Source: a virus. Taken from it: 26,437 nt of DNA. The notes below the pieces were generated by a model. The model was given only the letters and a program-made list of their open reading frames with translations. It was not told the DNA's origin and searched no databases. Below, in pieces: positions 2,645-24,957 of the stretch. The stretch covers positions 1 to 26,437 of the IMG/VR virus record IMGVR_UViG_3300022856_000029; one strand, given 5' to 3'. The position numbers and the translations under genes were made by a program. The stretch's first letter is position 1, and the number at the start of each line of letters is the position of its first letter.

Positions 2645-3592
2645 TTAAGATCTTGTGCAACGCATATTAATTACCCATAGATCATTCGTAATACGAGGAA
2701 CTTCAGCAAACTTATAACCAACAGAGGCATTAAGTGCTAACGGTCCATCATATATAGGTGGTCTATAAATAAATGTTGAGCTGTATCCATCTTGTTCTAT
2801 ACATGCATACGCTTCCATACCAACACAGAAAACGTTATATACATTATTGTCTAACACAGAAGCATTAGGAGAAACAGAACCAATAGAAGAAACAAGGAAA
2901 CGAAGGTTACCAATAGCTCCCCACTCTGAACGCAAAGCATCCATAGGTGATGGATATTGATTTTTATGGATAAAACCAGCAACGTTATCAAGATCACCAG
3001 TAAGCTGAGTAGATCCTAATGCAAAATATGCATCACGAACTGGAGCTGTTCCAAATTTATCTTCACCCTCAATATTGTCCATGATGGTGTAAGCATCATT
3101 ATCAAGAAGAGTACGCACAACTTCATTCACATCAAAACGAGTAATTTCAGTTGGGTTATCTCCGTTTACTCCACCAACACAGTTAATAAATGCTGCAGTA
3201 CTAGCAAGCATATTACGTGTAAGCTCATCTTCAGTTTGACGAAGAGAAACACCTAAACGAGCCGCTGCTTCATTTAGAACTGGATCTTGGTTTTGCAAAG
3301 TAACTTGCTCATTCAATTGAATGTACTGCCCGTAGAAATCAATGCGAGCATCAATATCTATTGCAGATAAAGCAACTGAAGGAGGTGTAATTCCTGTGTT
3401 TCCAAGAGGAACAAGAGCACTCGGCAAAGGATTATAACGACGCATACGTAATGTACGTCCGCCATTCCTTGGCATAGCTTTCTTCATCGCAGGTATTTTA
3501 TGGATCATGTTTGGTACAGGAACAGACAACAGTTTATAACTAAAACTTTGTTGTACTGGAGCCGGCAACAAACTCGTAGTCGTAACAGGCAT
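2645..3592 (-). CDS. Major capsid protein, N4-gp56 family
   Basis: This is a HK97-fold major capsid protein of the N4-gp56 family, which forms the icosahedral shell. The N-terminal third carries the family signature: RNGGRTLRMRRYNPLPSAL followed by VPLGNTGITPP, then DARIDFYGQYIQLNEQVTLQ and DPVLNEAAARLG (about residues 42-112). The central part has DELTRNMLAS and a domain ending in FGTAPVRDAYFALG. The length (315 aa) is at the short end for the family. ATG 3592 has AAGGA 7 nt upstream. Its own promoter lies in the 175-nt gap before it. The scaffold-like gene precedes it and the decoration gene follows, the usual order for capsid assembly modules. Confidence 0.9.
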   Translation of the reverse strand: MPVTTTSLLPAPVQQSFSYKLLSVPVPNMIHKIPAMKKAMPRNGGRTLRMRRYNPLPSALVPLGNTGITPPSVALSAIDIDARIDFYGQYIQLNEQVTLQNQDPVLNEAAARLGVSLRQTEDELTRNMLASTAAFINCVGGVNGDNPTEITRFDVNEVVRTLLDNDAYTIMDNIEGEDKFGTAPVRDAYFALGSTQLTGDLDNVAGFIHKNQYPSPMDALRSEWGAIGNLRFLVSSIGSVSPNASVLDNNVYNVFCVGMEAYACIEQDGYSSTFIYRPPIYDGPLALNASVGYKFAEVPRITNDLWVINMRCTRS

Positions 3593-3767: not shown

Positions 3768-4598
3768 CTATGAATTCTTCCTTGCAGCATTCATTTCTCT
3801 TCTCAATTGATCGCGCAATTCAGGCGTTAATCCATTAGCAAAGGCGTTCGCATGAGACATCGGAGAACTTCCACGCTGAGGCGAAACAGCATGTAGAGTC
3901 TTAGGCTTTAAAGAATTCTGCTTTGCTATCTCCCTATCTTTAACAAACGCATCTTTCTGGCCAATACCGAGCCTTTTTATTGTTTTATAGGCAAGAGCGG
4001 CTTTTTTATAAAGATCTGGTGTATGCGAAATCGCTAAAGCCAAGTCAGGATCCATGTCACGCAATGCATTTACATTTTCATTTGATACAACAGAAGCAAA
4101 GTCCGGAAAATTATTATTTAACTTCGCCTCTATGCGCGACTCTGAAGACACTTGCTCATAACTCTGTAACTTTTTCTCAAGCATAAGCATTCTTTTATCA
4201 TACTTACTTAAATGCTTGCCCTCTACAAGATCATCAGGATTAAGATGTAAATCTTGTTCTGGAACAACTTCTTTTGCAGGCTCTTGCTTAGCATTCCAAC
4301 GCTTCTCTAAGTCTTTAGCATATTGGATAGCTTCATTTCTCTCTTGCTCCAAACGAGAAGTTTTTTCCCTCAAACGCTTGAAGTTATCGTCTTTGATTGT
4401 ATTTTTTTCACTATCTATTTGCATTTCATTTTCATTAATGCCTGCTTCATCAGTAGTTTCCTCCTGTGCAACACGTTGCACAACTTCTTCCTGCGCAACA
4501 TCATTTGCAATAGGAGTATTTGGATCTTCTTGAAGCTTGTCTAATGTTTCTTTCTGTGGAACCGGTCGGCCATCTTTATCGTATTTCATATCAAACAT
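3768..4598 (-). CDS. Putative scaffolding protein (276 aa)
   Basis: A highly charged, low-complexity protein placed immediately before the major capsid gene, as scaffolds are. Residues about 1-70 are acidic and disordered. Residues 75-105 form a predicted coiled coil (RLREKTSRLEQERNEAIQYA), and further heptad-like helix lies near 130-155. The C-terminus is basic and helical (ELRDQLRREMNAARK), the kind of end that binds capsid subunits in P22-type scaffolds. There are no cysteines and almost no aromatic residues after residue 110. The start ATG 4598 has AGGA 6 nt upstream. The family match is by composition and position, not by a sequence signature. Confidence 0.75.
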   Translation of the reverse strand: MFDMKYDKDGRPVPQKETLDKLQEDPNTPIANDVAQEEVVQRVAQEETTDEAGINENEMQIDSEKNTIKDDNFKRLREKTSRLEQERNEAIQYAKDLEKRWNAKQEPAKEVVPEQDLHLNPDDLVEGKHLSKYDKRMLMLEKKLQSYEQVSSESRIEAKLNNNFPDFASVVSNENVNALRDMDPDLALAISHTPDLYKKAALAYKTIKRLGIGQKDAFVKDREIAKQNSLKPKTLHAVSPQRGSSPMSHANAFANGLTPELRDQLRREMNAARKNS

Positions 4599-6059: not shown

Positions 6060-8057
6060 TTAAAGCTCAAGATTGCTCTCTTGCTTCTTAACCATCTGAC
6101 TAAGTGTGATCAGTTTTTCAATCTGTCGCAAGTCAATATCTTCCATTTCTTTCATAGCCTTAGCAAGATCCAAGATCCCACTAAATCTATCTTTTTGAGC
6201 CTCTGCTTTTCTTTCAATAGCAAGAGCTTTATTTTCCTCTACTCGACTTATTCGTTCAATTCCAAGCCCTCTATTAGCTACCGCTCGTGCTTTCTCAGAT
6301 TCTATACGAGCTTCTAATTCTGCCATCGAAGCTTGCATCTGAACATTTGTTTGTTGAGCTTGCTGTTCAGCTTGTTTAGCAATAGTTTCAGTCAGCTGTT
6401 TCTTGTTCTGTAATGTAGAAGCTTCTAGCAGAACACTATCAGGAACTTGAACTCCGACCTCACGTAAATGTAATAACTGGGCAAACTGCATTTGTCGTTG
6501 AGTGGTAGTATTTAATCCATCTTCAACTGCTGCATCATAACGACCAAAAGCTTTATTATAAAACTGAGCAGTAGGTTCTTCCTCTATAATTCTTTTAACT
6601 TTTCCTGGTGTAAAGTTAACCTGAATCAATTCTATAAGAATTTTACCCAATAGCTTTTGTGCATTATCAAGATTATCAAACAATCCTTGAAGCGTAGTAA
6701 GTCCTGCTCCTTGTCTGAGCATAGAAAGAATACCAGCCTTATCATCAGTAGCAGATCCAAGAAGTTCTTCATTAACACCAGAGATCTCCATAACTTCACG
6801 TGCTAATAGTTCACTTAACTGAATCATAGAAGGTGGTATTTGAGGAGCATTTATACGTTGTACATCGGTCATATTAGCTTCTTCTTTTAACGCTAAACCA
6901 CGACCTTGAGCTGAAAGAAAGACATCTTTTGGATTAACTAAAGCATTTTCCTTATAAACCCAACCTGAATTCAGTTGCGATTCAAGAATATCTAATTCTA
7001 TTTGTCTTCTTCTATTATACAAATATTGCGCATCTCGTAGTCCACGAACAACACCCTGTATTCTCCAAGGAAAGTAAGGTATTTGAGGATTATAGTAAGC
7101 AAATACGGGAACGAATGGATAAATATCTATCCCAAGAGGATTAGGACCGTCGTACATAACACGACCTTCAAGAACAATAGCCAACTTAACTGTTGGGACC
7201 TCTTGGTTAATAACAGTAACTTGAGGATAGGTAGCAAGAAACTCTTCAAGCGATTCTTCTTTAGAAGACTTCCACTCCATCGTTTCACCAGTTTGCGTAT
7301 CAACAAGCATGCGCTGTGTTCTGTAATCACGATAATAGTACTCATCATACGCAAGAAGACCTTGATTGCCTGAGTTTAATGATTCAGGCATAAATTCAAA
7401 CTTCCCATCTTTTCCTCCGCCAGCTTGACCCTGCATTCCCATTATTTCATCTGCTTGATCAGGGAGAAGAGAAAGAGCTTCTTTTTTAGAAACAAATGAA
7501 CGCTTCCATAATCCATTACAATCAGATAAATCAGCTTTCTTAAAGAAGGGGTCAATAAGAAAACTATTATAAGCACAGTTATCTACACGTATATCACCAG
7601 AAATAGGATCACGACGATAATCCATCCATACCTGTAAGAGGTTCATACCCGTTACTAATGATCCATGAAACGAATCAGAGATCGTTTCTAACACACCTTC
7701 TTGCTGTGAAAGCCACATAAGTATCTTTGAAAACTGATCAGCAGTATCTGCATCACCATTCTCTGTAGGAACTGCGATTATAGACTTTCTATTCCGTCTC
7801 TGATTACCAGATATCATGTTTACAACACGACGAATTCTATTGAAGTTAAACTGTTTTCTACGATTTATGGGGATAGATCCGTAAATATCGTTCCACAAAG
7901 TCTGATCACCTGCTTCAAAGCGAGTGTCGGTATCTGCTTCACTCCAGAAGGACTGGTTAATAGTAATAGCCTCAGCATAGAATGCTTCCATACGGCTCAA
8001 GACACCGCGGTTTTTCTCATTATAGTACTGAGGTCCTAATTGAGGGAATAAAGGCAC
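6060..8057 (-). CDS. Portal protein, P22-like (665 aa)
   Basis: The portal forms the dodecameric DNA channel at one capsid vertex and docks the terminase. The N-terminal part matches the P22-type family: the FEAGDQTLW stretch, NFNRIRRVVNMISGNQRRNR (about residues 66-85), SFHGSLVTGMNLLQVWMDYR and the DPFFKKADLSDCNGLWKRSF region. The wing/stem region contains GVVRGLRDAQYLYNRRRQIE and ISGVNEELLGSATD. The last 120 residues are a Gln/Glu/Lys/Arg-rich coiled coil, as expected for a C-terminal barrel or crown. The length is close to the 725 aa of P22 gp1. The start is GTG at 8055-8057, with AAGGA 6 nt upstream. Downstream come the small head genes and scaffold, upstream the small 8101 gene. Confidence 0.92.
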   Translation of the reverse strand: MPLFPQLGPQYYNEKNRGVLSRMEAFYAEAITINQSFWSEADTDTRFEAGDQTLWNDIYGSIPINRRKQFNFNRIRRVVNMISGNQRRNRKSIIAVPTENGDADTADQFSKILMWLSQQEGVLETISDSFHGSLVTGMNLLQVWMDYRRDPISGDIRVDNCAYNSFLIDPFFKKADLSDCNGLWKRSFVSKKEALSLLPDQADEIMGMQGQAGGGKDGKFEFMPESLNSGNQGLLAYDEYYYRDYRTQRMLVDTQTGETMEWKSSKEESLEEFLATYPQVTVINQEVPTVKLAIVLEGRVMYDGPNPLGIDIYPFVPVFAYYNPQIPYFPWRIQGVVRGLRDAQYLYNRRRQIELDILESQLNSGWVYKENALVNPKDVFLSAQGRGLALKEEANMTDVQRINAPQIPPSMIQLSELLAREVMEISGVNEELLGSATDDKAGILSMLRQGAGLTTLQGLFDNLDNAQKLLGKILIELIQVNFTPGKVKRIIEEEPTAQFYNKAFGRYDAAVEDGLNTTTQRQMQFAQLLHLREVGVQVPDSVLLEASTLQNKKQLTETIAKQAEQQAQQTNVQMQASMAELEARIESEKARAVANRGLGIERISRVEENKALAIERKAEAQKDRFSGILDLAKAMKEMEDIDLRQIEKLITLSQMVKKQESNLEL

Positions 8058-8100: not shown

Positions 8101-8436
8101 TTAAACCTTGGGTGCATCCTCTTTTCTACATCCCTTACAACCACAATCACCTTCAATCATTTTCTTCTCTTGTATAACTGACCATTTTTCATCAAACCAG
8201 AGGAAGAATTCTTTTCTATCTAGATAAGATTCTTTTGCAAACTCTACCATAGGCTTTAAGAGTAAAATGAGATTTAATAATTGATAGTCAGTTCCATGAG
8301 GACCATGAACCCTTTCCATCTTTGTCGCCTCATCCATCTCTTTATTTTTAAGTAAATCTTGAGCCTCTTTATTTATCTTATAAATATGCTGTATAGCCCA
8401 TGCCATTGCGTGCTCTAATGCTTTATCCTTGTTCAC
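8101..8436 (-). CDS. Small helical protein upstream of portal (111 aa, or 131 aa)
   Basis: Two starts are possible. GTG 8434-8436 has AAAGGA 6 nt upstream and gives 111 aa starting at the residues NKDKALEHAM. ATG 8494-8496 would overlap the previous gene by 14 nt and has only a weak AGAAG site, so I prefer the GTG. The product is alpha-helical, with HAMAWAIQHIYKINKEAQDL and a Trp-rich segment FLWFDEKWSVIQEKK. It ends in a possible metal-binding tail C-G-C-K-G-C-R-K. It lies 43 nt before the portal start and is probably cotranscribed. I do not recognise the family. Confidence 0.5.
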   Translation of the reverse strand: MNKDKALEHAMAWAIQHIYKINKEAQDLLKNKEMDEATKMERVHGPHGTDYQLLNLILLLKPMVEFAKESYLDRKEFFLWFDEKWSVIQEKKMIEGDCGCKGCRKEDAPKV

Positions 8437-8482
8437 TGACAATCCTTTTATTTGATGAGTTTTTATTAACCGCCTTATAATA

Positions 8483-8698
8483 CTACATTTTGCCATCACT
8501 TCTAGGCTTATTGCCAGAACAATCTAACCGACAAAGAAATATCTTAATACGCTCTTCTATTAATTCGTCAGACATACCACTATTTCTCAACAGTTTATAC
8601 AAGTTTCTTACGGCTCCTGACTTAAGGTAATCCTGATTATATTTAGGATCAAACAAGCCACTCTTTTCTAAAAACTCTTCAAGACCTTTTATTTTCAT
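8483..8698 (-). CDS. Small hypothetical phage protein (71 aa)
   Basis: A 71-aa soluble protein beginning MKIKGLEEFLEKSGLFDPKY with two amphipathic helices (LEEFLEKSG; SDELIEERIKIFLCRLDC). ATG 8698 has AAAGGA 8 nt upstream. It lies between the HTH gene and the portal-proximal small gene on the same strand. No family is recognised. The C-terminus (GNKPRSDGKM) overlaps the alternative upstream start of the next gene. Confidence 0.5.
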   Translation of the reverse strand: MKIKGLEEFLEKSGLFDPKYNQDYLKSGAVRNLYKLLRNSGMSDELIEERIKIFLCRLDCSGNKPRSDGKM

Positions 8699-8891: not shown

Positions 8892-9077
8892 TTAATCGAC
8901 CTTAAAACTATTTAAAATAGCCTCTAAATCTTCTTTCTTATAGAATCTATACTTTGAAATAGGATGATAATACACCTTTATTCTTTTAGCTTTTTCCCAA
9001 TTACGAAGTGTATTTTTATGAACTCCCAGAAACTCAGCTGCTTCTGTTATCATTAAGAAGTCTTTAAAATTCATCAT
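8892..9077 (-). CDS. MerR/excisionase-type helix-turn-helix protein (61 aa)
   Basis: A single-domain DNA-binding protein. Residues about 8-52 form the winged HTH seen in the HTH_17/excisionase group: LMITEAAEFLGVHKNTLRNW is the HTH and YRFYKKEDLEAIL is the wing plus final helix. It could act as a phage repressor/activator or as an excisionase. The start ATG 9077 overlaps the stop of the 15-codon leader ORF by the ATGA arrangement and has only a weak SD of its own, so translation is probably coupled. Transcription would come from the minus-strand promoter at 9171-9199. It is the first protein gene of the strand that carries the head genes, so it could control either the divergent 122-aa gene or its own operon. 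Confidence 0.8.
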   Translation of the reverse strand: MMNFKDFLMITEAAEFLGVHKNTLRNWEKAKRIKVYYHPISKYRFYKKEDLEAILNSFKVD

Positions 9078-9121
9078 TCTTTACTACTCATAGCAATAAG
9101 CTGTTTTTTTGATGATTCCAT
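9074..9121 (-). CDS. 15-codon leader peptide coupled to the HTH gene
   Basis: ATG 9119-9121 follows a GGGGA site by 8 nt and encodes MESSKKQLIAMSSKE. Its TGA (9074-9076) overlaps the ATG of the HTH gene (9075-9077). This is the standard geometry for translational coupling. No codon run typical of amino-acid attenuation is present. It may simply raise or tune translation of the HTH protein. Confidence 0.5.
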   Translation of the reverse strand: MESSKKQLIAMSSKE

Positions 9122-9170
9122 TATTTTTATCCCCGTATGTAATTAATAAGTATCTCTTTCACCTATTATA

Positions 9171-9199
9171 AGTATAACATAGACTACCAACCTTGACAA
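9171..9199 (-). promoter_or_regulatory. Minus-strand promoter for leader-HTH
   Basis: On the minus strand TTGTCA (9194-9199) and TATACT (9171-9176) are separated by 17 nt. A TG pair one base before the -10 makes it an extended -10. Both boxes match 5/6 to consensus. The -35 box overlaps the -35 box of the plus-strand promoter at 9193-9198. Confidence 0.75.
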
Positions 9200-9221
9200 C
9201 CTTACCAAACTATGCTATAAT
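9193..9221 (+). promoter_or_regulatory. Perfect sigma-70 promoter for the 122-aa gene
   Basis: TTGACA (9193-9198), a 17-nt spacer and TATAAT (9216-9221) match the consensus exactly, with TGC before the -10 (extended -10). It is oriented towards the gene at 9267. The conserved core TATGCTATAATTATAG is nearly repeated in the ERF promoter at 13857. Confidence 0.85.
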
Positions 9222-9266: not shown

Positions 9267-9635
9267 ATGAAAAATATAAACAAAGAATTGACCAAGACAA
9301 ATGAAGAAATGATCAATTATATCATCGAACGAGGAGTAGAAGAATATTGCGAATTAATCGAAGAAGAAAGAGATGCTGGAAATAACGATGAAATTTTATG
9401 CAGAGTTGGTGGAGATAAATATGATGTTCTTTATGAATTAAGACTATTCATCCTAAACAATGACATTACTTCAAAAGATTCTTTAACCCCAAGAGCACTA
9501 AAAATATTTGCTAAGAATATCAATGAATTTGAGCTGGAAGAAGTATTAGATAGTCTCAAAGATATACAAAAAAGAGCTATCACAAAAGCCTACTTTGAAA
9601 TAAAAGAAGAAGAGGAATTCGTTGCCAAAAATTAA
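9267..9635 (+). CDS. Acidic hypothetical protein, divergent to the HTH gene (122 aa)
   Basis: A soluble, strongly acidic, all-alpha protein. It is rich in Glu/Asn/Lys, with EEYCELIEEERDAGNNDEI in the middle and ENYFEIKEEEE-like charge at the C-terminus. No membrane segment, signal peptide or known motif is visible. ATG 9267 has AAGGA 6 nt upstream and lies about 40 nt downstream of a consensus promoter, so it is likely expressed early or in the prophage state. It faces the terminase gene convergently, with a GC-rich hairpin between them. Its position next to a divergent HTH gene fits a regulatory or anti-host protein, but its function cannot be read from sequence. Confidence 0.65.
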   Translation: MKNINKELTKTNEEMINYIIERGVEEYCELIEEERDAGNNDEILCRVGGDKYDVLYELRLFILNNDITSKDSLTPRALKIFAKNINEFELEEVLDSLKDIQKRAITKAYFEIKEEEEFVAKN

Positions 9636-9638
9636 GTA

Positions 9639-9664
9639 GTTACGGGCCCACGTGGGGCCATAAC
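9639..9664. terminator. GC-rich palindrome between convergent genes
   Basis: A 26-nt dyad centred on CCCACGTGGG folds into 12 paired positions with two mismatches (GTTA...TAAC outside, GGCCC/GGGCC inside). It lies 4 nt after the stop of the 122-aa gene and 12 nt beyond the terminase stop. No T-run follows on either strand, so it is an atypical bidirectional terminator or stability hairpin. Its GC content stands out in this genome. Confidence 0.5.
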
Positions 9665-9676
9665 TTATAAGGTACT

Positions 9677-12019: not shown

Positions 12020-13162
12020 CTATTGCAACTCTTTAATTTCTTTCGTTAACGATTGAATGCTGTTATACCATATTTTAGTCAGCTCTTTCAAGAAGAACCT
12101 ACTACCTGATGGTGGCTCAATCAGCATCTCTTGGTATTTAATAATATCTTTTTTAGCCTTTTTTATCTTCTCTTGTTTAGATAACTCTTTTTCTACTATT
12201 TGCGGAGAATGATTACGTACCATATATGGACGATCTGCAATCTTTTTACTCATGATGGCAGATCTACCAACGGACTGTGCCTTTTGCCAGTCTGGTACAA
12301 TCTCATTAGCATCACACCACTTCTTACACACCATAAAGAACCAATTAAACGGATCTTTTATATTTCTAAAGTGCTTCATCTTCTCTTTTGCATGAGCTAT
12401 AGCATCCGAGGGGAATACACTCAGCTTGGTTTGACCATCAATTGTCAAATGTAATGTAGACAAATCTACAATATATTGAGGAGGTGTAGCCGACTCCTGT
12501 TTAAAGTGCTTCATTTTAGCCCACTTCGAATAATTAGAAGGCAATTTCTTGCGTTTCTTCGTTTTCTGGTGCGATTTTCTCTTCTTTTTAGCATCCCCGG
12601 TAGCGAAAGCATTATTACAGGGATATATAGACTTACTTGTAATACTATTTCTTGTGCTATATTCATACTGCACAGGATTTAATATAGGGGCATTAGGCAT
12701 ATATTCAGACTGAATAGGAATCATGCAATTAACCAGGCTGAGAAAGACAAGTGGAAGAAAACGTAGTGATGGAAGTACTCCTGAAAGAAGAGATCGTATC
12801 TTGGTATCAAAAAATATAGGATCTACTGCATAAAGATTGCTCGCCTTCCAACGCCGCTTGCTTGCAATAAGGCCGAGACCTTTTAGTACTTTTATGTAAC
12901 GATTTACAGTCTCTCTTGTACATCCAACATAATTAGCTATAGCTTTTGATTGTGATGGATAAATATGCTTGTATGTATTGCTTAGACCTATAAGATAGTT
13001 AAGAAGTCTGAGTTGAGTTCGAGTTAAACCATCTATAATAGTTAATAAATGCAAACTACCTTTTATACCTAATTGAAAAGAAGTTTTTTTATTTACTTGT
13101 ATTTTAGTAAAATTTGATTTATTCTTGTTTTTGTTAATGATAACTAGTAATCTGTTTCTCAT
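12020..13162 (-). CDS. Winged-helix replication-type protein (380 aa)
   Basis: Residues about 45-115 form a winged helix-turn-helix: LTRTQLRLLNYLIGLS, then SQSKAIANYVGCTRETVNRY and a wing at KVLKGLGLIASKRRW. Similar N-terminal domains occur in phage and plasmid replication initiators and primosome-loading proteins. A very basic linker follows (KKKRKSHQKTKKRKK near 191-205), and the C-terminal 150 residues are helical, with a Trp-rich part (DPFNWFFMVCKKWCDANEI). ATG 13162 has AAGGA about 12 nt upstream, rather far. The leader holds repeats and micro-ORFs that may control expression or serve as binding sites. Position ahead of RusA-like and terminase genes fits replication, but a transcriptional regulator cannot be excluded. 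Confidence 0.6.
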   Translation of the reverse strand: MRNRLLVIINKNKNKSNFTKIQVNKKTSFQLGIKGSLHLLTIIDGLTRTQLRLLNYLIGLSNTYKHIYPSQSKAIANYVGCTRETVNRYIKVLKGLGLIASKRRWKASNLYAVDPIFFDTKIRSLLSGVLPSLRFLPLVFLSLVNCMIPIQSEYMPNAPILNPVQYEYSTRNSITSKSIYPCNNAFATGDAKKKRKSHQKTKKRKKLPSNYSKWAKMKHFKQESATPPQYIVDLSTLHLTIDGQTKLSVFPSDAIAHAKEKMKHFRNIKDPFNWFFMVCKKWCDANEIVPDWQKAQSVGRSAIMSKKIADRPYMVRNHSPQIVEKELSKQEKIKKAKKDIIKYQEMLIEPPSGSRFFLKELTKIWYNSIQSLTKEIKELQ

Positions 13163-13214
13163 TGTATTAGTTTTCCTTAACAGTTAATGATAACTAGTAA
13201 TTGTATTAGTTTTC
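13133..13214. repeat. 50-bp spaced direct repeats at the replication gene start
   Basis: GTTAATGATAACTAGTAA occurs exactly at 13133-13150 and 13183-13200. TTGTATTAGTTTTC occurs at 13162-13175 and 13201-13214, and a related TTGTACCAGTTTTACTTA occurs near 13274. The pattern looks like a tandem duplication of the start region of the 380-aa gene. It could be iteron-like binding sites or a plain duplication. Confidence 0.7.
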
Positions 13215-13495
13215 TTTGTAATAACTGGTCCTATGTTTCGTATAGCAATTTTTTGATGTTCTTTCGTATTCATTGTACCAGTTTTACTTAACTTTGAAAT
13301 TTTCGTTTGTATATAAGAATGGGGTTTGTTCGCCCCAGAGATGAACTTGTTCATCTGCATTGTACCTTCCTTCCTATGAGCAAACATAGGGAGCCGGTTG
13401 TCTATGATAGGCAAAAGAGGGCGTTTATTTAAGAGCATTTGTTTCCTTAGTGGGTTGCATGGTTTTTTAGTAATTGTTTTTTGTTTACTTTTCAT
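13184..13495 (-). CDS. Basic hypothetical ORF before the replication gene (103 aa, or 58 aa)
   Basis: An open frame of 103 codons from ATG 13495, or 58 codons from ATG 13358-13360. The inner start has the better SD: AGGAAGGAAGG directly before TACAATG. The product is lysine-rich with no recognisable domain, beginning MKSKQKTITKKPCNPLRKQM or MQMNKFISGANKPHSYIQTK. Its 3' end lies in the duplicated segment shared with the start of the 380-aa gene, so the C-terminus (TNTITSYH) may be a by-product of duplication. It is either a small real gene or a leader region that stays open by chance. Confidence 0.35.
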   Translation of the reverse strand: MKSKQKTITKKPCNPLRKQMLLNKRPLLPIIDNRLPMFAHRKEGTMQMNKFISGANKPHSYIQTKISKLSKTGTMNTKEHQKIAIRNIGPVITKKTNTITSYH

Positions 13496-13498
13496 GGT

Positions 13499-13525
13499 TC
13501 AGAACTGTTTCCTTTCGGGGTACAT
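13499..13525 (-). CDS. Possible 8-codon leader peptide
   Basis: ATG 13523-13525 encodes MYPERKQF and stops at 13499-13501, 3 nt before ATG 13495. An AGAAGGA site lies 10 nt upstream. It may couple translation to the next frame. It is short enough to be chance. Confidence 0.25.
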   Translation of the reverse strand: MYPERKQF

Positions 13526-13569
13526 TGTTATAAAGATCCTTCTTGGGTTTTGTGTGAGTTTCTAAATAT

Positions 13570-13640
13570 AGCCTCCTTGGTTATGTTGTTTTTTCTAAAA
13601 AGCCTCCTTTGGTTTTTTTATATATAGCCTCCTTTGGTTA
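13570..13640 (-). repeat. Three orphan Shine-Dalgarno repeats
   Basis: On the minus strand AACCAAAGGAGGCT occurs at 13626-13640 and 13601-13614, and AACCAAGGAGGCT at 13570-13583. Each contains AAGGAGG, a full match to the 16S anti-SD, yet none is followed by ATG, GTG or TTG at a working distance. Short frames starting at ATA follow two of them. The array lies in the 400-nt leader between the ERF promoter and the replication-type gene. Confidence 0.7.
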
Positions 13641-13833
13641 TTTGTTTAAAGTTTTTACCTTTTATATAAAATTCTCTCGCCTGCAAGCTAAAAAATTAAT
13701 ATAAGATAAAAACTACCTTTCTCTGGCGATTCCGTCAAAATAAATTTCAATAAAAATCATTAATTGTCGTTTTTGTAATGACTTTTTTCTTTTATATAGT
13801 GTTTTTGTGCGTACATACAACATTCAAGACAGC
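13641..13833. other. Non-coding AT-rich leader between divergent modules
   Basis: No supported gene is seen here on either strand. The minus strand contains several weak promoter-like pairs (for example TTGTAT and TATATA 16 nt apart near 13795-13825), none good enough to call. This stretch should hold the minus-strand promoter of the replication module and possibly an origin. Confidence 0.4.
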
Positions 13834-13905: not shown

Positions 13906-14709
13906 ATGGAAAGTATGAAAAAAACTATTCAAGATCGTCATGATCGCCATATGAGTGAAGCACTACAAGAGAGTAATGATAAAAAAATATCTGAAAAGCT
14001 AAGTTATATATTAAATGAAATTCGTTCTCTTTCTCAAAAGCTTGAATCACCAAAAGACATTCAAAAAACAAGATCTGATGATTTAAAAGATTTATTTAGT
14101 GCATTAGCTAAAGCTCAATCAGAAATGAGATCAGCAGGATTAAACTCAGAGAATCCTTACTTTAAAAGCAAATATGCTGGTCTTGCTGAAGTTGTTAAAG
14201 CTTCTCGCAGTGCTTTAACAAAGAATGAGCTGAGTGTTATACAACAGATTATGCCAAACAAAGAAGGACAAAACTTTCTTCATACTATCTTGGGTCATGC
14301 ATCAGGTCAGTGGATAGAAAGTCGCATGAGAATTGTACCACATAAGCCTGACATACAATCTCTTGGCTCTTACATCACTTACCTTAGAAGATATTCATAT
14401 GCTTCAATTATTGGTGTTGTATCAGCTAATGAAGATGATGATGGTGAACTAGCAGTACATGACATGAGAAAGACAGTGTCAAAAGGGGTAGCACTTAACA
14501 CAAAATATAATCCAAGAAAACAAAGTTCAGAAACTATTACCAAAGAACAGTTAGAAGAGTTAGAATATGAGCTCGGTGATTATACTGACATTTGTGAAAT
14601 GGTACTAGAAGGACTAAAAATTCAATCTCTTGCTGATATGCCAAAAGATAAATATATGGTTTCTGTAAGAAGAATACGTGAGATAAAAAAACTCAGAGAA
14701 GGTCGTTAG
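13906..14709 (+). CDS. erf: ERF-family single-strand annealing protein (267 aa)
   Basis: ERF proteins anneal complementary single strands in phage recombination and genome circularisation. The family core spans about residues 62-185: LFSALAKAQSEMRSAGLNSE, NPYFKSKYAGLAEVVKASRS, a beta segment with HTILGHASGQWIESRMRI, and the hallmark SLGSYITYLRRYSYASIIGV. DEDDGE-like acidic residues (ANEDDDGELA) follow. A coiled-coil-like N-terminal extension (1-55) and a helical C-terminal tail are outside the core. The start at 13906 has a weak purine-rich site; ATG 13915 is an alternative. It is expressed from its own promoter and ends at a strong terminator. No exonuclease or SSB partner is visible in the window. 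Confidence 0.9.
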   Translation: MESMKKTIQDRHDRHMSEALQESNDKKISEKLSYILNEIRSLSQKLESPKDIQKTRSDDLKDLFSALAKAQSEMRSAGLNSENPYFKSKYAGLAEVVKASRSALTKNELSVIQQIMPNKEGQNFLHTILGHASGQWIESRMRIVPHKPDIQSLGSYITYLRRYSYASIIGVVSANEDDDGELAVHDMRKTVSKGVALNTKYNPRKQSSETITKEQLEELEYELGDYTDICEMVLEGLKIQSLADMPKDKYMVSVRRIREIKKLREGR

Positions 14710-15496: not shown

Positions 15497-16507
15497 ATGC
15501 AGGATATTCCCATTTTAAATAAATATAATCCATCAGAACATTCCTTAGCATCACAAGATTTGTTTAAGCACAATTCTTATGCCTTTATCGAAAAGCTTGA
15601 GAACTCTTCTATTAAATCAGTACTGCATAATTGGCTAAAGAATCTTTCTCCTGAAACGAGACGAAACTATTCTTATTATGTAACCGATATGATACGACGT
15701 AATATCATCCCTGAGAAAGATGCTTTAGGAAATCCTTTTACAGTGGGACACTTTAGACTTATCCCTCATGAGCTAGTTCTTGATTACATAAAAAGCATTA
15801 AAGAATGGTCAGAAGGTACTCGACAATTGCATGCAGCAGTATATATATCACTCACATCCTACTTATCCCGAATAAGCCAAGGATGGGTCAGAAAAGTAGA
15901 ACCATCAAGGCTCAGGTCAAATCCAACGTTTTATAAAGTACGAGAAAAATGTGCAACCAATGCTTTAACCTTAGCAGAATGGTATAAGTTCATTTCTGAG
16001 TTGTCAGATATTAATACAAGAGACTCATTGATAGCTCGATCAGCATTTCATGGGGCCAAAAGAATAACAGAAGTCATTAGCATTAAACTTTCTCAAATAG
16101 ATTGGGGAAAAAATATTATTCGCTATAGACAGTCAAAGTCATGCGGAACATTTCGTGAAATACCCATTACATTTCCATTGTCTTTTATGGAAGAACTTAA
16201 AATGTATATAACAGAAACAATTGATATACGAAAAGACTCACCTTTTGTTTTTATTACAAGAACCGGAAAAATGGTAACACGATTCCAGCTTAATTATGCA
16301 TTTAAAAAAGCAGGAGAGAGAGCTAACATTAAAATTAAAGTAACTCCTCATGTTCTACGTGCCACCTGGGTAACACTTGTTCGCAATCAAGGAGCAAGCG
16401 ACTCACAAATCATGCAAGTAACTGGTCACAGAAACAACACAATGGTTATGGCATATGATAAGACTAGTGACGAAGAGAATATATCTAAAAAGATAAACTT
16501 TATTTAA
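15497..16507 (+). CDS. int: Tyrosine recombinase / integrase, chlamydial-plasmid Pgp7/8-like (336 aa)
   Basis: It catalyses site-specific recombination between phage and host attachment sites. An N-terminal core-binding domain (about 35-130) precedes the catalytic domain. The catalytic set is complete: Arg189 in GAKRITEV, Lys214 in RQSKSCG, His285 and Arg288 in TPHVLRATW, His311 in TGHRN, and Tyr320 in MAYDK. Stretches such as TFYKVREK, ITFPLSFMEEL and IKIKVTPHVLRAT resemble what I recall of Pgp7/Pgp8 of chlamydial plasmids (TFFKIRDK, ITFPISLMEEL, MKIKITPRVLRAS). That likeness is memory, not a search. No SD precedes ATG 15497, which is odd for this genome. It converges on the fibre module. 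Confidence 0.93.
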   Translation: MQDIPILNKYNPSEHSLASQDLFKHNSYAFIEKLENSSIKSVLHNWLKNLSPETRRNYSYYVTDMIRRNIIPEKDALGNPFTVGHFRLIPHELVLDYIKSIKEWSEGTRQLHAAVYISLTSYLSRISQGWVRKVEPSRLRSNPTFYKVREKCATNALTLAEWYKFISELSDINTRDSLIARSAFHGAKRITEVISIKLSQIDWGKNIIRYRQSKSCGTFREIPITFPLSFMEELKMYITETIDIRKDSPFVFITRTGKMVTRFQLNYAFKKAGERANIKIKVTPHVLRATWVTLVRNQGASDSQIMQVTGHRNNTMVMAYDKTSDEENISKKINFI

Positions 16508-24608: not shown

Positions 24609-24705
24609 CTACTTCCTTTTTATAGAGGAGTGAAAAATCTTATATATTTACTCTATCAAAAAAACAAAACGACAACCTAGAAGTATTAATTGCATTCAAG
24701 TCATC

Positions 24706-24734
24706 TTGACAGCTTGATGGCAATGTGATATACT
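24706..24734 (+). promoter_or_regulatory. Extended -10 promoter for the right-end small operon
   Basis: TTGACA (24706-24711), 17 nt, TATACT (24729-24734), with TG one base before the -10. It shares GACAGCTTGA (24708-24717) with the ERF promoter. It lies 44 nt before the ribbon-helix-helix gene. Confidence 0.75.
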
Positions 24735-24777
24735 TATTATAGATAAGCAATAGTTTATTTATCAAGGAAATACAAAG

Positions 24778-24957
24778 ATGTTCACCAATAGAAAAACAAT
24801 GACGATAAGAATCGATGCATCTCTTCATAGAAAAGTTAAATTTTTAGCACTCTCAAGAGGAATTACCGTACAAGGATGGGTAATGTGTGCGATTGTAGAA
24901 AAAATGTATAAAGATGATACGGATTTAAAAGAACAAAAAGTTATCAACTCAAAATAA
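24778..24957 (+). CDS. Ribbon-helix-helix DNA-binding protein (59 aa)
   Basis: A 59-codon gene with the Arc/MetJ/CopG-type fold. TMTIRIDASLHRKVKFLALS supplies the DNA-contacting beta-strand and first helix, and RGITVQGWVMCAIVEKMYKD the turn and second helix. Such dimers are phage repressors (Arc, Mnt) or antitoxins. ATG 24778 has AAGGA 10 nt upstream. It is transcribed from the consensus promoter at 24706, divergent from the fibre operon and followed by two tiny membrane-protein genes. It may autoregulate, repress fibre transcription, or be an antitoxin. Confidence 0.8.
   Translation: MFTNRKTMTIRIDASLHRKVKFLALSRGITVQGWVMCAIVEKMYKDDTDLKEQKVINSK

Follow-up and report, generated by a model that had tools for sequence, protein, structure and literature searches.

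The organization of genes and regulatory elements was analyzed in a virus record of 26,437 bases (IMGVR_UViG_3300022856_000029), taken at its full length and hereafter called the window. Its minus strand carries the head gene cluster, which is composed of terL (terminase, 11056-9677, profile match), a gene for a 61-aa winged-HTH protein of BldC/excisionase type (8892..9077), a 71-aa ORF downstream of it (8483..8698), a 132-aa ORF (8101..8499), the portal gene (6060..8057, PHROG portal match at 1.8e-74) and the major head protein gene (3592-2645, profile match). The 71-aa and 132-aa frames come from the ORF list; the second is conserved in L003, the nearest relative, and a scan with its protein found only a near-identical contig. 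On the plus strand, profile matches identified an Erf-type protein (13906-14709) and a tyrosine integrase (15497-16507), the latter 6 kb away from the HTH gene. RNA elements and tRNAs were searched for and none was found. Elsewhere in the window, positions 13524-13647, between a putative replication gene and the Erf-like gene, hold AGCCTCCTTTGGTT in three or four imperfect copies flanked by T-rich DNA, which could be iterons of an origin; direct repeats ATTGTATTAGTTTTCCTT (three copies) and GTTAATGATAACTAGTAAT (two copies) were observed at 13133-13289, over the beginning of the replication gene and the bases directly preceding it. At 24706-24765 two 11/12 promoters face each other with adjacent -10s, near small ORFs (24640-24957).

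A 122-aa gene (9267..9635, plus strand) is divergent from the HTH gene and convergent with terL. A Shine-Dalgarno-like AGAAGGA, noted by eye, lies directly upstream of its start. Family and phage profile searches with the 122-aa protein gave no match beyond chance, and profiles detected no DNA-binding domain of the kind expected for a lambda-type opposing regulator; the single-sequence structure model (pLDDT 51) was too poor for use. Beyond the window, the gene is carried only by L002, a contig 100% identical. Between the converging 122-aa gene and terL we observed a hairpin (9640..9670; -13.6 kcal/mol on the plus and -15.1 kcal/mol on the minus strand, z -1.9 and -2.8), a possible terminator without a T run.

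The HTH protein matches Pfam HTH_17 over residues 10-57 (1e-9). It consists of a MerR-like winged HTH only, without dimerisation or effector domain, as in the BldC family. Modelled with AlphaFold2 on 24 homologues (pLDDT 86), it gave as top Foldseek matches the BldC-DNA structures 6ama and 6amk (TM about 0.7), then MerR proteins and Pukovnik Xis; the very small size of the protein keeps the E-values modest. A profile search against solved structures likewise listed BldC, Xis and MerR proteins. Excisionase profiles were matched as well (PHROG 66 at 3.9e-8; TIGR01764 at 26.7 bits, under the 28.8 cut-off), and so was the PADLOC mad1 model (7e-11). We class the protein as BldC-like and not as BldC, since BldC's own repeat consensus, AATTNNNN(C), is not found here. 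Homologues were gathered from viral contigs and bacterial genomes. Among the closer genomic ones, assemblies of Dependentiae/Babeliales, Chlamydiae and Planctomycetota predominate, and this gives no more than a hint of the host. In Dependentiae and Chlamydiae genomes (L092, L096, L103 and others, with the HTH gene at about position 3001) the HTH gene is followed, after about 170-230 nt, by a large serine recombinase and often lies downstream of an AAA/primase-like gene, an arrangement which suggests a common integrative element.

A divergent promoter pair with overlapping -35 regions

Two promoters were predicted back to back between the HTH and 122-aa genes. P+ (9193..9221, plus strand, 12/12) has the form TTGACA-17-TATAAT with a TG extension: TTGACA at 9193-9198, a 17-nt spacer (9199-9215), TGC, and TATAAT at 9216-9221. 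P- (9171..9199, minus strand, 10/12) has the form TTGTCA-17-TATACT, also TG-extended: TTGTCA at 9199-9194, a 17-nt spacer (9193-9177), TGT, and TATACT at 9176-9171. Start sites inferred from the hexamers fall at about 9228, toward the 122-aa gene, and at about 9164, toward the HTH and head genes; the HTH transcript would begin with an 87-nt leader (9078..9164, minus strand) in which folding gave no notable structure (z +0.74). A sequence-only reading of this DNA had proposed the pair, and its promoter coordinates, 17-nt spacers and extended -10s were all confirmed, as was the divergent layout with the 122-aa gene on one side and the HTH and head genes on the other. It had also taken the two -35s to be the same bases: five of the six (9194-9198) indeed overlap, and the boxes are offset by one rather than identical.

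The second -35 is partly automatic, since TTGACAA always reads TTGTCAA on the other strand. With the -35 in common, a second -10 scoring 5/6 or better would arise by chance at a spacing of 16-18 in 4.9% of cases, and a TG-extended one (at least 5/6, right spacing) in 0.2%. The whole window was also shuffled 200 times with dinucleotides preserved. P+ is the sole 12/12 promoter in the window (0.04 on average in the shuffles); pairs sharing a -35 with both members at 10/12 or better occurred 0.03 times per shuffled window on average, and no shuffle reached the observed score sum of 22. The promoter pair with a common -35 is beyond chance, and at the level of sequence the two divergent core promoters overlap.

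Direct repeats over the common -35 and in other HTH loci

A repeat scan together with a cross-locus motif identified a predicted operator array at 9185..9211, made of three 9-bp direct repeats (TACCAACCT, TGACAACCT and TACCAAACT); the repeat units in the window read AGGTTGGTA / AGGTTGTCA / AGTTTGGTA. The array extends from about -47 to -21 of P- and from -43 to -17 of P+; within it, the middle repeat spans the whole of the minus -35 together with the larger part of the plus -35. Its triple-repeat score is attained at only four places of the window, and the paired repeat is present only at 9188/9197. The sequence thus shows what is characteristic of BldC-family sites, direct repeats with units of about 9-10 bp within promoter regions. 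In a limited search of open-access papers the operator repeat had no match.

A 10-bp direct repeat, AATGTTTGnTAATGTTTG, was observed upstream of the HTH homologues, both those of phages and those in genomes of Dependentiae, Chlamydiae and Planctomycetes. Lag-10 direct repeats are enriched in these upstream regions, with a mean z of 1.0 relative to shuffles and 1.4 relative to randomly placed sites of the same loci, where 0 of 5000 draws reached the observed value; the enrichment at lag 9 across the HTH loci was not significant against random places (p 0.21). As the cross-locus signal is at lag 10, support for the 9-bp period comes from the window itself and from L172, a locus found later, outside motif training, which has three 9-bp TTTGAC repeats upstream of its HTH gene (TTTGACATG, TTTGACGCT and TTTGACGTC) and, by eye, a divergent layout.

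The motif, AATGTTTGnTAATGTTTGg (AATGTTTGnT), was learned from 37 other loci with the window left out, in a search seeded by eye from the pattern in L003 and others. When both strands of the window were scanned, its top match was 9195-9214 (minus strand), on the common -35, with a score of 10.1 and the next site not far below (8.3). In a leave-one-out analysis, which drops the tested locus from the training set and not from the by-eye seed, the single best match lay at most 170 nt upstream of the HTH gene in 19 of the 38 loci, about one being expected. In L172 the match upstream of the HTH gene ranks second (7.0 vs 9.2). That a motif from other loci peaks in the window on the common -35 agrees with the sequence-only proposal of the HTH protein as the likely regulator. 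The box being part of the predicted binding site also suggests why the two promoters have one box.

L003, whose terL, portal and HTH proteins are 81%, 83% and 65% identical to those of the window, carries its HTH gene in the same place. Its promoters (TTGACA-17-TACACT and TTGACA-17-TACTAT, at -122..-94 and -70..-42) have separate best -35s, about 23 bp apart, each lying within or next to an operator motif of its own (matches at -116 and -77); a weaker divergent promoter (9/12) would have its -35 in common. The divergent ORF, of 111 aa, is unrelated to the 122-aa protein. Comparison with related phages, which the sequence-only reading had put forward as a check, thus favours it in that both promoters persist in L003, and goes against it in that the best -35s are separate, with their own operators and an unrelated divergent gene. 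In L074 a palindromic TTGCAA serves two back-to-back 9/12 promoters, again with an unrelated divergent ORF. A common -35 is present in 3 of the 38 loci (the window, L003 with its weaker second promoter, and L074; 0.36 expected), a count that is weak because the window was chosen for that trait; as a general conserved trait it was set aside. Overlap of -35s in homologues cannot be shown, since their promoters often deviate from the sigma-70 consensus. The operator follows the -35s across loci, and the common -35 is therefore one arrangement among several. Many HTH homologues have no divergent gene, and no homology was found among the divergent genes of the HTH loci.

Portal relatives (80 loci) yielded few further HTH copies. 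In L003-L059 the distance between terL and the portal gene varies from about 20 nt up to several kb, which marks this gap as a hot spot for inserted genes. In L064, CAAAC-like motifs with a spacing of about 10 bp (3893-3943) lie upstream of an HTH gene beside an apparent type I restriction methylase gene, and this operator style may extend to restriction-modification loci.

A predicted self-regulated control point

From these computed features we infer binding, repression, promoter use and timing as follows. The HTH protein most likely oligomerises on the array 9185-9211 and represses its own promoter together with that of the divergent 122-aa gene. Made from P-, it would bind the three head-to-tail 9-bp repeats, and one short filament would cover and block both -35 regions; joint blocking of the two directions is predicted because the array sits symmetrically. 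While the protein is scarce, upon fresh infection or induction, polymerase would take either promoter, only one per DNA molecule, and P+, being the consensus one, should be the more frequent winner. Accumulation of the protein would then shut both promoters, giving negative autoregulation and a pulse of 122-aa protein. Transcription from P- into the head genes would probably be repressed too: a scan of the minus strand from P- to position 8000, just inside the portal gene, showed nothing that resembles a terminator. On balance we favour a phage divergent control point at which the HTH protein, on its three repeats, blocks both -35s and shuts both promoters.

Two polymerases should exclude each other sterically at such a site, given the size of their footprints. 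The sequence-only reading had seen in this exclusion a decision switch. The exclusion itself is to be expected, as is described for EcoRV (PMC5333194); the switch is not supported, as an operator over both -35s predicts joint repression rather than a choice of direction, and neither the single box nor the divergent gene is kept across the loci described above. As the main point it was rejected, not being conserved in L003, and no decision is identified because the 122-aa gene has no known function. Since the common -35 is the best window match to the predicted HTH binding motif, the locus resembles an on/off point under self-regulation, which is a known general type, more than it does a novel sort of decision switch.

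The protein could still pick the direction if its filament repressed one side and activated or spared the other. RdfS, a related protein, activates intS while repressing its own gene (PMC11963761), and the HTH protein could therefore activate one side; Euo likewise represses some promoters, activates others, and is one-sided at one divergent pair (PMC10653925). We hold this to be rather unlikely, as the near symmetry of the three repeats over both -35s predicts joint blocking and the best -35s are not common in L003. Doubtful as well is the view that there is no regulator at all: constitutive overlapping promoters would compete for polymerase, the 122-aa gene would be cargo and P- would restart the head operon. 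Both promoters are strong and close to consensus, a hairpin follows the 122-aa gene, and the variable terL-portal gap of relatives shows that cargo genes enter here, but the common -35 is precisely where the motif from other HTH loci lands. There is only a small chance that the HTH protein is chiefly the excisionase of the tyrosine integrase, with promoter control secondary. Its excisionase-family profile matches, and the position of the Dependentiae/Chlamydiae homologues, which precede a large serine recombinase by about 180 nt, point that way; against it, the HTH gene is in the head cluster, the paired repeat is confined to 9188/9197, and neither a paired repeat nor, among the best motif matches listed, any match was found near 15497-16507, in a window that may not span the whole genome. 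Finally, it is barely credible that P+ alone is real and P- a by-product of the near-palindrome TTGACAA, which yields TTGTCA for free in a site of just 10/12, as the extended second -10 has the 0.2% chance given above and the HTH gene would need terL read-through across the oppositely oriented 122-aa gene.

Beyond joint repression at this locus, it is possible, though we put it forward tentatively, that the HTH gene and its operator form a self-regulating promoter cassette that is portable and has spread over the phages and the mobile elements of Dependentiae, Chlamydiae and Planctomycetes, with a common operator code of 9-10 bp direct repeats, and that in some phages the operator also controls an exchangeable divergent cargo gene. 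The analysis provides a testable predicted operator sequence for widespread, mostly unstudied small regulators annotated only as excisionase-like, including those of Dependentiae and Chlamydiae.

Comparison with known systems

The top fold match is BldC of Streptomyces, likewise a small protein with nothing beyond a MerR-like winged HTH. Its protomers line up head to tail on 9-bp direct repeats and, at smeA, occupy the promoter DNA from -60 to -10 (PMC5859096), a repeat length and a promoter coverage that the predicted array would have in common with it. The phage protein is however about 24% identical to it, the repeat is AGGTTGGTA here and AATTNNNNC for BldC, and binding here is predicted. 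RdfS and the HTH_17 excisionases, including Pukovnik Xis, have in common with the HTH protein the domain family, the fold and a gene on a mobile element, and RdfS negatively autoregulates its own promoter (PMC11963761); here, in contrast, the gene is in a head cluster, no matching site lies near the integrase, and RdfS is without a defined consensus site. Chlamydial Euo (PMC4989314, PMC10653925) is also an excisionase-like winged HTH that represses its own gene and acts at divergent promoters. It is a host master regulator, and was rejected as the same system since its published consensus, TTAAAAACAAATTTT, differs.

For the promoter arrangement, EcoRV restriction-modification (PMC5333194) offers overlapping divergent core promoters that polymerase cannot use both at once, but there the control lies with a C protein and the genes served are those of restriction-modification. 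In the Pc/Pr region of pLS20 (PMC8014075), overlapping divergent promoters are combined with a row of boxes in the same orientation and with a regulator, Rco, encoded on one side; Rco is a tetramer acting by DNA looping with a second box cluster, and here no further cluster was observed. Pairs of divergent promoters that overlap and are governed by an autoregulator are thus already known (pLS20 Rco; compare EcoRV), as is the HTH family to which the predicted regulator belongs.
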